NCBI GenBank assembly: GCA_021800155.1
Contig: JAJYZG010000002.1
Span: forward strand, 1-64,000
Direction of reading: 5' to 3'
Length of the DNA stretch: 64,000 nt
Source of the DNA: a bacterium
GTDB lineage: Bacteria > Patescibacteriota > Saccharimonadia > Saccharimonadales > UBA4665
Below the pieces are notes generated by a model. The model was not told where the DNA came from. It saw only the letters and a program-made list of their open reading frames with translations, and ran no database searches. Position numbers and translations under genes: made by a program. Shown piece after piece: positions 40,250-45,327 of the stretch (position 1 is the first letter of the stretch; each line of letters begins with the position of its first letter).

Positions 40250-41647
40250 ATGAAAGCTGCTGTCGCTCTGGTGCGTTCTAAAGCTGTGGTTTTGGTGTGC
40301 GGATTAATAGCAATTATTATCGTTTTGCTGCCGTTCCATGCCTTTTTAACGGTCTGGGCGGCATCTAACTTCGGTCACTATACCTTATTTAGATTATGGA
40401 AAGAGTTTTTGGTTGCCTTTTGTGGCTTAGTGGTGATTGGTTGGTTTTTTACTGATACTAAAGTCCGCCGCGGCATCTTTAAGACCAAGCTGGCGTGGCT
40501 AATTATGGCTTATGCGGCACTTGATCTAATACTTGCGCTGATTGATTACCAGACCCATAAAGTAAGTCTCAAAGCGGTAGCTTATGGTGTGCTCGACGAT
40601 CTGCGCTTTTTGGCCTTCTTTATCATTTGTTGGGCGGCCGGTATAAAGAGCCATACTTTAAACCGGCAGTGGGAAAAACTGATTCTTTGGCCGGCAGCTA
40701 TAGTAGTGGCGTTCGGATTACTGCAGATGAGTGTACTTCCGGCTAATGTCCTGTCTCATTTTGGCTACGGTCCGCATACCATTATGCCGTTTCAGACAAT
40801 TAATAATAACCCGCATTACATCAGGATATTATCTACTTTAAGGGGATCTGATCCGCTCGGGGCCTACCTGATTCTGCCCATAGCAGTTCTAGCTGTTCTG
40901 CTAATTTCTTACCCGAAGAGCTGGAATTGGCTTAAAGTGCTGTTTCTCATTGGTGCGGCTGCGGTTTTATACGGCAGCTATTCACGCGGTGCGTGGATTG
41001 GCGCCGTTTTGGCGGTAGTCTTAGTGGCAGTAATTGGCTTGAATAAGCAAGGCTTAGCTAAATTCAAAACTCCGCTAATGATCATTGGTGTAATAATACT
41101 AGTGTTAATCATAGGAGCGTTCGCGGCTTTAGGTACCAGCAAACGGTTTCAGAATATTGTTTTCCATACGCAAAGCAATTCTGCTGCACCGGTCAGTTCG
41201 GATGCGGCCCACTTAAGCGCCTTAAAAACTAGTATTAAACAGGTGCTTAACCAACCGTTTGGCGATGGACCCGGTACGTCCGGACCGGCAAGTGTCTATA
41301 ACCATGATGCGCCGGCTAGGATAACCGAGGATTATTTTTTGGAGGTTGGGGAAGAATCCGGCTGGATCGGCTTAATTTTATTTGTTGCCATTAATCTATA
41401 CGTTGGCTTGTTGCTGTGGCAGCGCCGCCGTTCACCTTTTGCGCTGGCGCTATTAGCCGCGTTTATAGGGCTTAGCTTTGTTAATTTGCTGACACTTGAA
41501 TGGACCGATGACACGATGACTTATATTTTTTGGGGGCTGGCTGGATTAGGTATTGCCGTTGCACCTGAAAAAGATCAACTGCAACGGTCAAAAGCTGATC
41601 AGAGATTATTAACTAATGTGGCTTTGGCCAGGAAAAAGACCAGCTGA
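40250..41647 (+). CDS. O-antigen ligase / polymerase-like membrane protein
   Basis: Predicted protein of 465 residues with about ten membrane spans and one long external loop. The conserved GAYLILPIAVLAVLLISYP and YGSYSRGAWIGAVLAVV segments match the O-antigen ligase (Wzy/WaaL, PF04932) family, with the loop Arg in SYSRGAW. It should attach or polymerise lipid-linked glycan at the outer face. In a bacterium without LPS, the acceptor may be a wall polymer or lipid; this is inference. The TGA stop overlaps the next ATG. Confidence 0.87.
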   Translation: MKAAVALVRSKAVVLVCGLIAIIIVLLPFHAFLTVWAASNFGHYTLFRLWKEFLVAFCGLVVIGWFFTDTKVRRGIFKTKLAWLIMAYAALDLILALIDYQTHKVSLKAVAYGVLDDLRFLAFFIICWAAGIKSHTLNRQWEKLILWPAAIVVAFGLLQMSVLPANVLSHFGYGPHTIMPFQTINNNPHYIRILSTLRGSDPLGAYLILPIAVLAVLLISYPKSWNWLKVLFLIGAAAVLYGSYSRGAWIGAVLAVVLVAVIGLNKQGLAKFKTPLMIIGVIILVLIIGAFAALGTSKRFQNIVFHTQSNSAAPVSSDAAHLSALKTSIKQVLNQPFGDGPGTSGPASVYNHDAPARITEDYFLEVGEESGWIGLILFVAINLYVGLLLWQRRRSPFALALLAAFIGLSFVNLLTLEWTDDTMTYIFWGLAGLGIAVAPEKDQLQRSKADQRLLTNVALARKKTS

Positions 41648-42108
41648 TGCCGGCAAAAGAAAGTTCGCTCCGGCCGACGAAAAAGCAACGAGAATTACTC
41701 AATTTTATTAGTGATTTTATTGCCAGTCATGGTTACAGCCCCAGTTACCGGGAAATCATGAGTGGATTGAACTACAATTCGGTTGCAACAGTGGCGCTAC
41801 ATGTTAACAGTTTAATCAAGCGTGGGCATTTGCAAAAAAGGGATCGTTCGGCTCGCTCGCTTGAAGTTGTCGGTGACAGACACCTTGAGCCATTGCTAAC
41901 CAATGCAGTAACCCCGGTTGAGGAAAAGTGGTTAGTTGAAAAAGTTGAACATATGTGCCGGGAGTTGGAGCGCTCATCAACCCCCACTAGGACTGATCTG
42001 GACAATTTGATTATTCTAATCGGGGCTATGAAAATTCTCGGCTTGGAAGGTGCAGCGCAAAGTTTTAGTCCGAGAATTAATCGTATAAGACAACACTTCA
42101 AAACCTAG
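41647..42108 (+). CDS. LexA-type DNA-binding protein without peptidase domain
   Basis: Predicted protein of 153 residues. Residues ~8-72 match the LexA winged helix (LRPTKKQRELLNFISDFIASHGYSPSYREIM, read in two parts, then VATVALHVNSLIKRGHLQKR). The S24 autoprotease domain is absent; the C-terminal ~80 residues are helical and unassigned, with a KWLVEKVEHMCREL stretch. It is therefore not a self-cleaving LexA. It may regulate the adjacent genes; it starts inside the stop of the ligase gene (TGATG). Confidence 0.85.
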   Translation: MPAKESSLRPTKKQRELLNFISDFIASHGYSPSYREIMSGLNYNSVATVALHVNSLIKRGHLQKRDRSARSLEVVGDRHLEPLLTNAVTPVEEKWLVEKVEHMCRELERSSTPTRTDLDNLIILIGAMKILGLEGAAQSFSPRINRIRQHFKT

Positions 42109-42155: not shown

Positions 42156-43073
42156 ATGATTGAGACTTTAGCAAGTCGTGAAGTCTACCGTGAGTCAGGT
42201 CGACGTAGACCTGAGAAGAGGACGGCTCACTCAAAGGGCAAAATATTACAGTTGTTGGGCAATGGGAGTATCGATCTCGTAAGAGCCAGCCACTTGCTCA
42301 AAAATACCGGTATCCATGGTATGGTATTGGCTGGCGAGGCTTTGTTAGATCAAGCCACTAAAACCACCAATCTAGAAGAAGCCCAGACACACTATGTCGG
42401 TGCTGCCCAAGTGCTCACAACAGTTGAACGTTTAAGTGCTAATGGGCCGGATAATTTAGCGGCTCATGTTGCGCGGGCACGTATTATTAAGTCATTTATA
42501 CCTGTCCGCGCCTATATGGATTCAGAAAAACGCTTGCCCCCGAACGATGGATCGACCTCGCATAACATTTACCGAACACTGGTTGAGGAAATGGTTCGAC
42601 TGCGTGATGCGTATAGGAAGGTTGACTCTTGGCCAGACAAAGGGCGGTTGATCGGCCAATTAGGAGAGTTTACGGTGCTTTCACTCCTAAGTAGATTTGG
42701 AGAGCAACATATTGACGATCAATCATATTGTGCAATGCCTTCATTATTGACTGAGGATAGGCAGTTGAATCGAAGTTTAAATTCGTTCGGACCTTGGGAC
42801 ATTAGCATCTATACGCATATGGGTGAAGAAGAGCCGCGTCTAACCTATCGATTGCAAGTCAAAAACCAGTGCGAAGCTTCAACTCGGGAAGAAGGAGATA
42901 CTGAATTGTCTTGGGTGGATCTCCGCCGCGATCTAGCCTTGTACTCCGGCGAGAGTCGTGTTGATGCCAAGATTGCTAGCGAAATGGCTGCTGAATTTTA
43001 TCTTAATGAGGATTGGGCAACCCGTCATCTCGATATACGAACCGGTAAGTTACTTGATGTAATAGATGCTTAG
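42156..43073 (+). CDS. Unknown protein with possible PD-(D/E)XK nuclease-like core
   Basis: Predicted protein of 305 residues, no family recognised. The N-terminal part (1-130) is helical. Residues ~165-240 have GQLGEFTVLSLLSRFGEQH, then GPWDISIYTHM and YRLQVKNQCE, which fits the E...D...(Q)VK order of PD-(D/E)XK domains. Nuclease activity is inference only. It follows the LexA-like gene on the same strand after 47 bases, and a promoter and riboswitch lie right after it. Confidence 0.65.
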   Translation: MIETLASREVYRESGRRRPEKRTAHSKGKILQLLGNGSIDLVRASHLLKNTGIHGMVLAGEALLDQATKTTNLEEAQTHYVGAAQVLTTVERLSANGPDNLAAHVARARIIKSFIPVRAYMDSEKRLPPNDGSTSHNIYRTLVEEMVRLRDAYRKVDSWPDKGRLIGQLGEFTVLSLLSRFGEQHIDDQSYCAMPSLLTEDRQLNRSLNSFGPWDISIYTHMGEEEPRLTYRLQVKNQCEASTREEGDTELSWVDLRRDLALYSGESRVDAKIASEMAAEFYLNEDWATRHLDIRTGKLLDVIDA

Positions 43074-43122: not shown

Positions 43123-43131
43123 TGCTAAAAT
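43123..43131 (+). promoter_or_regulatory. Extended -10 promoter of the riboswitch transcript
   Basis: TGCTAAAAT at 43123-43131 is an extended -10 element placed so that the transcript would start at about 43138, just before the cobalamin riboswitch core. Confidence 0.55.
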
Positions 43132-43140
43132 AGAATTACT

Positions 43141-43230
43141 TAACATGCAGACCGGAAGTAGGTGTAATTCCTGCGCTGTGCCGCAACTGTGAGCCAGATT
43201 TACTCTGGTAAGCCAGACACGGTTAGATAA
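43141..43230 (+). ncRNA. Cobalamin riboswitch (aptamer)
   Basis: The segment contains the conserved aptamer core: GGAAGTAGGTGTAATTCC, then GCTGTGCCGCAACTGTGA, then GCCAGA at 43193-43198 and AGCCAGACAC at 43211-43220, with a small CCAGA/TCTGG hairpin between them and an ACCG/CGGT closing pair (43151-43154 with 43220-43223). This is the order and sequence of the cobalamin (B12) element. It precedes an expression platform and an unknown protein gene. A covariance-model search was not possible here. Confidence 0.85.
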
Positions 43231-43236
43231 GTCTCT

Positions 43237-43300
43237 CGAGCAAGAGCGAGAAAGCAGTTGTTTCATAAGCCCTTGCTCGATTAAGTCAAAGGGCTTTTTT
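43237..43300 (+). terminator. Riboswitch expression platform: terminator / SD-sequestering hairpin
   Basis: AAGCCCTT (43267-43274) pairs with AAGGGCTT (43289-43296) ahead of a run of T's, forming an intrinsic terminator that also buries the Shine-Dalgarno AAAGGG nine bases before the ATG at 43303. An alternative stem, CGAGCAAG (43237-43244) with CTTGCTCG (43272-43279), overlaps the terminator arm and would act as antiterminator. Ligand binding could switch between the two. Confidence 0.75.
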
Positions 43301-43302
43301 AA

Positions 43303-44529
43303 ATGGAAACAGCAACTGAGTTAAAAACCAATGAGAAACTAAAAAGCTTTAACTTGCTGGCTGGGGTTAATGCTCTCAGATATGATCTTCAGCTTTACGG
43401 GCAAGTCCTGCCGCAAACGCTGGAACAAGTAAAAAATGAACACTTAAGCTATATCACTGAAGGCATTGATAAAGCTTCGCGCACAGAATTTGTATTCAAA
43501 CGCTCAGGTGAAGATTTAATTTACTTTGATGATGGGCATTGGCGCAGCTACGATGACATGCTGGAAGCTGGAAAAAATGCAGCAATACATGATGCTGAGC
43601 TTGACAGTCGCCGACAATTTCTCGTGGATTGGGCTGAAAATGATATTCAGCAACATGAAAGAAATAAACAGCTAAAGCCGGGCCAAAGCCGCGTGTGGAT
43701 TTCCCTATACCCTAAAGATGTTGAACAAAAGTATGGATACGAGTTGATGCGTAGTTGCGGGTTGGTGCCGGAGCGTCAGATGGGCTACCTCTACCAGGCA
43801 AGTTGTAATAGTGACGGTAGTATAACTTTGTCTTCGCAGACGATTGATCGCAGCGATACTGCAGCCGCTATGGCCGTGATGGCTGCCGCCGAGCGTGATC
43901 CAACACTTGGGCTAGATGAGCTAACCGAAGTCTATGACGCGTTTTTGTCTGCTAAGAATGGTGGTCATTTTTTTGCTGGTCGTAGAAGTAGTGAGCGCAG
44001 CGAAAATGCCTGGGCTGAAGTGCTAAAAAACCATGATCTGATCGACTACCTGATGCGCGGGCTGAGAAAACTAGCGGCTGTTTCGGTTAAAGAAGAACAG
44101 CTGGAGACTGAAACTAAAAGGCTTATTTACGGAGTGTGGGCCGCCTTTAGCAGAAGACTAAACAAAACGAATGCAGTGTCAGTAGAAACCGGTAACAACG
44201 TTAAAGCCATAAATTATCTTATAACTTATGCCAGATTGAACCATGAAGTAGATTCAGCTTTTCAAGCTTTTGCCAAAGAAAGAAGATTAATGAGTGGCTG
44301 CGGCGGTTCCTTATCCGTCTTTAGCGAAACTGATTTAAATAATATTGAGTCTGAAGCTGTCCATTCTCAAATCTTCGCTGCTAAATTTGCAACCACTGAA
44401 GTCATGAAGTGTGTTCATTGTCCTTTGTGTCACAAGCAGGGGGTTGATGCTTTAGTGACGATCAAAAATGGCAAAAAAATCATAACTTGTTCTAAGTGTA
44501 AGCAGTCCAAAACTTACAACGCTAATTAA
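43303..44529 (+). CDS. Unknown protein with C-terminal zinc ribbon under riboswitch control
   Basis: Predicted protein of 408 residues; no family recognised. The body is mainly alpha-helical, with charged stretches such as VDWAENDIQQHERNKQL and a central AAAMAVMAAAERDPTLGL. The last ~35 residues hold CVHCPLCHKQGVD and ITCSKCKQSK, a CxxC...CxxC zinc ribbon of the kind found in nucleic-acid-binding proteins. It sits alone after the cobalamin riboswitch, 2 bases past the terminator U-run. It is not a recognisable B12 enzyme or transporter, so the link to cobalamin is unexplained. Confidence 0.85.
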   Translation: METATELKTNEKLKSFNLLAGVNALRYDLQLYGQVLPQTLEQVKNEHLSYITEGIDKASRTEFVFKRSGEDLIYFDDGHWRSYDDMLEAGKNAAIHDAELDSRRQFLVDWAENDIQQHERNKQLKPGQSRVWISLYPKDVEQKYGYELMRSCGLVPERQMGYLYQASCNSDGSITLSSQTIDRSDTAAAMAVMAAAERDPTLGLDELTEVYDAFLSAKNGGHFFAGRRSSERSENAWAEVLKNHDLIDYLMRGLRKLAAVSVKEEQLETETKRLIYGVWAAFSRRLNKTNAVSVETGNNVKAINYLITYARLNHEVDSAFQAFAKERRLMSGCGGSLSVFSETDLNNIESEAVHSQIFAAKFATTEVMKCVHCPLCHKQGVDALVTIKNGKKIITCSKCKQSKTYNAN

Positions 44530-44563: not shown

Positions 44564-44743
44564 ATGAAAGCTGAGCTTATTCCTAACATCAGCCAACCTC
44601 TAATTAAAGTGGCGATAGGTTCACTTGGTCTTATGCCCGATAATCGGGGCGCTTACCCGTTGGTAGCTCTGTACGGACATTGCTTATCTTTAACATACTG
44701 TCTTCCAGCGAGGTGTTGTGCAGAGGGGACACTAGCCTTATGA
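44564..44743 (+). CDS. Possible small protein upstream of nadD
   Basis: Frame of 59 residues (start MKAELIPNISQPLIKVAIG) whose TGA overlaps the nadD ATG. No ribosome site and no family are seen, and it ends with a Cys-rich stretch (LTYCLPARCCAEG) that looks unusual. It could be a short coupled leader, or chance. Confidence 0.25.
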   Translation: MKAELIPNISQPLIKVAIGSLGLMPDNRGAYPLVALYGHCLSLTYCLPARCCAEGTLAL

Positions 44744-45327
44744 AGCGCATCGGTATCTTCAGCGGAACTTTTAATCCAGTTCATGCCGGACATATTGGGT
44801 TTGCTTTGCAAAGTCTAACGCAGGCCAAACTCGACAAGGTATATTTAATGCCCGAACGCTACCGTGAAGGTAAAAGTGATGTTGCTCACTTTGCTCATCG
44901 TGTGGCGATGGTTCGCCAGGCGATACGTCCACATCGACAGCTTGGCTTAATTGAGAGCAGTGATGTCAGTTTTTCAGTCAATAAAACCTTGGTCAAACTC
45001 AGAAACCAGTTTTATGGCTACCGTCTGGTTTTTCTTGTCGGATCGGACAGTCTCAAAACGATGGGCAGCTGGCCGGGTGTCGAAAATTTACTAAAGACTT
45101 CTGAGTTAGTCGTCGGTATTCGTAAGGCCGATGAGGCCGACGTAGCTACCTGGGTGCAAGCGTTACCGGTCAATCCTAGACAACTAACGTTAATACCTTC
45201 GCATGCTCCGGCAGTTTCCTCAACTAAGATCCGCGAGGCTTTGAGACGGAGTGAGACTGCCGAGGGAACGTTATCGAGTGTTCGTCGCTATAGCGACCGC
45301 AATTGGCTCTATGTATCCCTTACCTAA
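44740..45327 (+). CDS. nadD: Nicotinate-nucleotide adenylyltransferase
   Basis: Predicted protein of 195 residues from the ATG at 44740; an upstream ATG at 44680 adds 20 residues not typical of the family. It has GIFSGTFNPVHAGHIGFA with the HxGH active site and the C-terminal SSTKIREALR motif of nucleotidylyltransferases. It makes deamido-NAD from nicotinate mononucleotide. The LVGSDSLKTMGSW strand also fits. CPR bacteria often keep only salvage-like parts of NAD synthesis; other genes of the pathway are not in the window. Confidence 0.85.
   Translation: MKRIGIFSGTFNPVHAGHIGFALQSLTQAKLDKVYLMPERYREGKSDVAHFAHRVAMVRQAIRPHRQLGLIESSDVSFSVNKTLVKLRNQFYGYRLVFLVGSDSLKTMGSWPGVENLLKTSELVVGIRKADEADVATWVQALPVNPRQLTLIPSHAPAVSSTKIREALRRSETAEGTLSSVRRYSDRNWLYVSLT

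Follow-up and report, generated by a model that had tools for sequence, protein, structure and literature searches.

A predicted cobalamin riboswitch upstream of an undescribed zinc-ribbon protein family in Saccharimonadales

The analyzed window, a 64,000-nt stretch from a 1.1 Mb Patescibacteria genome of the order Saccharimonadales, contains a structured RNA leader directly followed by an open reading frame at 43303-44529, which encodes a protein of 408 residues with a zinc ribbon (C-x2-C...C-x2-C) at its C-terminus. This reading frame and all leader features described here are on the forward strand. Upstream of the leader are a protein with a LexA-type DNA-binding domain but no peptidase part (41647-42108) and a 305-residue protein without a Pfam match (42156-43073). 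A NadD-like nucleotidyltransferase (44740-45327) follows downstream on the same strand as the 408-residue gene. Among 99 loci carrying relatives of the 408-residue protein, a LexA-like homologue was found upstream in 55 and a NadD-like homologue in 60, with 58 of the latter copies downstream on the same strand. Since the NadD-like neighbor is so widely kept, the locus is an old syntenic block. A mobile or phage origin was rejected, as there was no match to phage or plasmid records and the chromosomal neighbors were conserved in 55-60 of the 99 loci.

The putative aptamer core spans 43151-43223 and comprises P3 (43151-43154/43220-43223), P4 (43158-43162/43170-43174), P5 (43177-43178/43184-43185) with its loop L5 (43179-43183), and P6 (43187-43189/43214-43216). 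It is followed by the hairpin P13 (CTCT-CGAGCA-AGAG, 43233-43246), the loop of which, L13, pairs with L5 in a kissing loop (P14) with one bulged A. A cobalamin aptamer had been proposed here from the sequence alone, with the reservation that a sub-threshold covariance score would refute it. When a 351-base stretch was searched with cmscan, the Rfam model RF00174 matched positions 43123-43242 with 29.6 bits (E = 6e-6), and no other RF00174 match was found in the genome. Taken literally, the check failed, as the score is 1.9 bits short of the gathering score of 31.5 bits. This gathering score is a curation threshold and not a structural feature, and the orthologous RNA of G003, the nearest relative with the gene (89% protein identity), reached 33.0 bits with the same model, which is above the cut-off. 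A covariance model designated R1 was built from 42 relatives, leaving out the window and its closest relative. With R1, the window scored 86.9 bits (E = 6e-18) at 43151-43246 over the full length of the model, while the second-best match in the 64 kb had only 11.6 bits. The sub-threshold Rfam score is consequently no real refutation of the riboswitch.

The 42 relatives, again without the window, also supported the structure by covariation. In P3, P4, P5, P6, P13, and the L5-L13 kissing helix, 99.1% of the cells were paired, and 154 cells carried double changes, compared with 42 in shuffled alignments and at most 19 when the partners were slid. The covariation score was 0.454 versus 0.135 in the shuffles. 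Covariation was strong in P3, P4, P6, and P13, the last of which had double changes at all four pairs with 100% of the cells paired, and more than 10 different P13 stem sequences occurred among the relatives. The five pairs of the kissing helix, formed by L5 (UGCCG) and L13 (CG-a-GCA) with one base bulged, were invariant in 42 of 42 sequences. The folding energy of the leader gave a z-score of -1.18, and the leader is thus distinguished by its covariation and not by folding energy alone.

The RNA resembles the short class II type of RF00174, such as env8, in having a P3-P6 core, conserved sequences in L4 and L5, P13, and a kissing loop of L5 and L13 in which one base is bulged. In a cobalamin riboswitch, a single bulged base in the kissing helix was reported to make docking ligand-dependent (PMC10907184), and the kissing helix of the window has this same feature. 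The RNA differs from the Rfam consensus in its L5 loop, which is C-rich in the consensus and UGCCG here. Compared with the env8 type, the leader has only about 15-20 nt ahead of P3, and in Saccharimonadales the expression platform is supplemented by a terminator-like hairpin that immediately precedes the ATG. The region 43151-43300 would accordingly be a short cobalamin riboswitch with one simple P6 hairpin and no multi-branched extension. Judged from its sequence and covariation, the RNA is almost certainly a cobalamin riboswitch, and it is a new, slightly unusual member of the known class RF00174; the ligand is inferred, as there are no binding data. The score below the Rfam cut-off could be taken to mean that a diverged, cobalamin-like aptamer senses something else, or nothing at all, which we find barely credible given that 42-64 sequences show hardly any change in the core and the kissing loop and that DUF4430/transcobalamin-like proteins and nrdAB are under the control of this same RNA.

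An extended -10 promoter element, TGCTAAAAT, is located at 43123-43131. Its counterpart, TGNTANNNT, precedes P3 by 29-52 nt (median 33) in 71 of 110 relatives, compared with a mean of 6.8 in shuffled sequences. Transcription is therefore inferred to start near 43138. Since the promoter element lies only about 33 nt ahead of P3, the RNA begins shortly before P3, and there is no space for a long P1/P2. The motif TTAACA (43140-43145) near the inferred 5' end was also conserved, with 71 of 110 relatives carrying it immediately ahead of P3 (2.3 on average in shuffled sequences), and no role was assigned to it.

The expression platform had been predicted to comprise a terminator, a competing antiterminator, and a sequestered ribosome site, and all three elements were recovered in the window leader, which contains both mutually exclusive helices and a hidden ribosome site. 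The terminator-like hairpin at 43267-43300, identified by minimum free energy folding, has 8-bp arms, AAGCCCTT (43267-43274) and AAGGGCTT (43289-43296), and its 3' side leads into a run of six T's, the last of which (43300) is three bases ahead of the ATG (43303). The 5' strand of the antiterminator, TCGAGCAAG (43236-43244), spans L13 and P13, and its perfect 9-base complement, CTTGCTCGA (43272-43280), is located in the 5' arm and loop of the hairpin. These nine perfect pairs were equalled by none of 100 shuffles. The computed energies of the two states were nearly the same, with -12.5 kcal/mol for P13 plus the terminator hairpin and -12.1 kcal/mol for the antiterminator. In addition, the 3' arm of the hairpin shares positions with the Shine-Dalgarno-like AAAGGG at 43288-43293, which is thus buried. 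In the minimum free energy fold, the segment CAGTTGTTTCAT (43255-43266) can also pair with the start of the reading frame (43303-43308 and 43313-43318), extending the hairpin over the ATG. This pairing was visibly weaker in G003 and was not retained as a general feature, which it probably is not.

Among the relatives, a T run right before the start codon was present in 62 of 83. The antiterminator complementarity was individually significant in just 23 of these 83, so the exact platform varies. In another class of Patescibacteria, where 14 loci were inspected, 2-8 nt separate the ATG from the 3' strand of P13, which carries an AGGA-type ribosome site, in 12 of them, so that docking would hide the ribosome site directly. 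In the window, bound cobalamin, probably adenosylcobalamin, would dock the P13 loop on L5 and withdraw P13 from the antiterminator, allowing the hairpin at 43267-43296 to form. Transcription would then stop in the T run, and the 408-residue gene would have its ribosome site hidden. When cobalamin is scarce, the antiterminator would form instead and the gene would be expressed. Since docking of L13 on L5 would tip the nearly equal balance toward the hairpin, we consider it very probable that ligand binding represses the gene, a direction that is inferred and has not been measured.

The protein was described in the original prediction as unrecognised and as fitting no known B12 target, and the homology and structure searches proposed there left this description intact. 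Searches of Pfam, NCBIfam, and PDB sequences placed the window protein in no family, and no known-family match recurred among 103 family members. The AlphaFold2 model was confident (pLDDT 88.4, pTM 0.78), and a Foldseek search with it returned no match at E <= 0.001 in the PDB or among viral models; the model of a short relative (see below) likewise had none at this threshold. The weak Pfam candidates (GlcNAc transferase, IFT121 zinc finger, Elf1) were discarded as scattered, below cut-off, and not family-wide, as were the Foldseek candidates (LasR, longin, and PAS-like; caprolactamase and PAS), none of which reached E <= 0.001 and all of which had low TM-scores. In these Pfam, NCBIfam, PDB, and fold searches, the protein matched none of the known target families for cobalamin transport, synthesis, or isoenzymes.

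Iterated profile searches starting from the window protein recruited 105 of 112 large proteins of the order into one family, nearly all of the 112 having been taken downstream of RF00174 hits. The layout consists of N-terminal helices with an invariant E53, an alpha/beta domain with R110 and S134, then C333, and the C-terminal zinc ribbon (C373/C376/C396/C399). With a mean column identity of 12%, the family varies more than most enzymes do; E53, C333, and the ribbon are kept, and R110 and S134 less strictly so. The window protein meets the family traits, having E53, an S134-type strand motif, C333, the ribbon, and a gene right after the switch. The target is thus an undescribed family whose defining trait is control by a cobalamin riboswitch.

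The pairing was also counted with the protein as the query. An RF00174 match was present in 120 of 198 Saccharimonadales genomes, nearly always one in each, and was above the cut-off in 37 of the 198. A protein search found the family in 120 of the 198 genomes as well. Of these family-positive genomes, 107 had an RF00174 match, and 12 of the remaining 13 had the switch according to R1 or its core sequence, bringing the total to 119 of 120. The last genome, G136, has its family copy starting right at the edge of a contig. When the order-level profile was applied to a sample of the whole phylum, all but one marginal match (E = 2e-4) were in Saccharimonadales. Shorter relatives of 250-330 residues occur in another Patescibacteria class. 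Their kinship was initially in doubt, with an hhalign probability of 4.7% using five sequences, which rose to 96.7% over the N-terminal domain, i.e., beyond the zinc ribbon, using 18 sequences. The controls were clean (0.7% and 3.4% for reversed sequences and 0.1% for DUF6580), and non-kinship was therefore rejected. When loci in this other class were found by the protein alone, the RNA was directly upstream in 15 of 21 new loci. As far as these genome sequences can tell, the pairing of family and switch is near-obligate and order-wide, and the window protein would be the form specific to this order within a cytoplasmic Patescibacteria family that the switch controls in nearly all cases. Being both order-wide and nearly exclusive, the pairing strengthens the proposal of a new B12-responsive function, while the function itself has not been demonstrated. 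No paper on this pairing was found in a search that covered only part of the literature.

NrdJ is the adenosylcobalamin-dependent class II ribonucleotide reductase. It was detected above the cut-off (TIGR02504) in 54 of 61 near relatives, including the window's own genome (C52). Among the near relatives, no B12-binding domain (PF02310) was found above the cut-off and no adenosyltransferase of the PF01923 type was found, the CobA and EutT types and the B12 ABC and ECF transporters being outside the search. NrdJ was thus the one B12 enzyme found. Over the 198 genomes, 111 had both the family and NrdJ, nine the family only, 25 NrdJ only, and 53 neither; the table was not corrected for shared ancestry, which inflates such counts. 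Some of the nine family-positive genomes without an over-cut-off NrdJ are incomplete assemblies, and in these searches 14 NrdJ genomes had neither switch nor family. Among 27 genomes with only low-scoring, class I-like reductase matches, the switch was present in none and the family in one. By this genome comparison, the family tracks NrdJ.

In Streptomyces, a B12 riboswitch controls the class I nrdAB next to the class II NrdJ. The Saccharimonadales likewise have a cobalamin switch in NrdJ-dependent genomes, and exactly the Streptomyces arrangement was seen in one of them (G192:C26, L292), where the switch is directly upstream of nrdA-nrdB and the genome also has NrdJ-like matches. The usual target in the order differs from that of Streptomyces in being the unknown zinc-ribbon protein and not a reductase. 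This classic isoenzyme logic, together with the way the family follows NrdJ (111 of 120 family genomes, but only one of the 27 class I-like genomes, with no switch in any of them), could indicate a B12-independent bypass, with the same switch, in which the protein helps dNTP supply in some other way when NrdJ stalls without adenosylcobalamin, as NrdAB would. We regard a bypass as unlikely, as the protein resembles neither a ribonucleotide reductase nor any salvage family and its operon partners are DUF4430 and DUF6580 genes instead of nucleotide genes.

Within the order, about a dozen RF00174 matches are followed by short DUF4430 proteins, which have a hydrophobic segment at the N-terminus. 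Elsewhere in the phylum, DUF4430 proteins are the usual riboswitch targets, some with a transcobalamin-type alpha-toroid domain, and are commonly followed by DUF6580. DUF4430 resembles the transcobalamin C-domain and DUF6580 a membrane protein, whereas the window protein is soluble and unrelated to them in sequence. Such pairs under cobalamin riboswitches occur across the phylum (L048, L057, L091, L099, L111, L147, L191, L244, and others) and look like a B12 uptake system. These operons share the same RNA and phylum with the family and sometimes the same operon, in the orders switch-DUF4430-DUF6580-family gene (G030, G150), switch-family gene-DUF4430 (G082), and DUF6580-switch-family gene (G659), although within the order only three genomes were seen with the family and DUF4430/DUF6580 genes in one operon. 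The shared operons point to the B12 economy rather than a B12-unrelated role, and together with the other targets they are the main arguments both for cobalamin as the ligand and for such a role.

Very different proteins follow the riboswitch at several loci of other Patescibacteria classes (L217, L227, L229, L203, L232, L195), some of them long and of low complexity and several ending in AA. A cobalamin riboswitch of a different type precedes a 428-residue protein with weak reductase N-domain and TauD matches at L068 (G097:C2); this odd target was left out of the evidence, as the contig is probably a contaminant.

The shared operons also suggest a link to acquisition, and in a host-dependent lineage a fast-varying, B12-repressed protein might be secreted or directed at the host to obtain its B12 or nucleotides. 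That is very unlikely for this family, since a membrane- or signal-peptide-like segment, sought as a 19-residue window of mean hydropathy above 1.8, was present in 0 of 105 members.

An AA C-terminus, often LAA or VAA, was found in 16 of 100 family members (e.g., L072, L098, L106, L140, and L153) compared with eight of 571 other reading frames. These endings are similar to ssrA-type degradation tags and may confer built-in instability. With the C-terminal zinc ribbon and the fast sequence change, they would suit an unstable regulatory or checkpoint protein, rather than a supply enzyme, that is produced solely when B12 runs short and might, for instance, slow DNA replication or hold NrdJ. We rate the chance of this as small, because the AA ending is absent from the window protein and most members, the related genomes are not independent, and there is no match to a DNA-binding family.

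Taken as a whole, the observations are best explained by a protein that cobalamin represses and that supplies or handles B12 for NrdJ, an explanation we consider probable with due reserve. Since these bacteria need B12 for their DNA-building enzyme, the gene probably helps with B12 shortage, and the protein would obtain or prepare cobalamin for NrdJ by scavenging, trafficking, or adenosylation. The biochemical role by itself is inferred without activity data, and we give supply or handling not quite an even chance. Against the explanation as a whole counts the absence of any homologue of known function and of any confident fold match. It is more speculative still, and on present evidence rather doubtful, that this superfamily, for which no fold match is known, handles cobalamin as a factor not recognized before, such as a new adenosyltransferase or a chaperone charging NrdJ. 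If true, Saccharibacteria would have in this factor their principal gene under B12 control, and their life on borrowed B12 in the absence of known B12 genes would be explained.

Most of these host-dependent bacteria seem to have just one gene that responds to B12. The switch ties a widespread unknown family to a specific vitamin and, via co-occurrence, to DNA precursor synthesis. Since the link between vitamin and protein is near-obligate and order-wide, the function is directly testable, and the finding suggests that the dependence between Saccharibacteria and their hosts includes the supply of B12.
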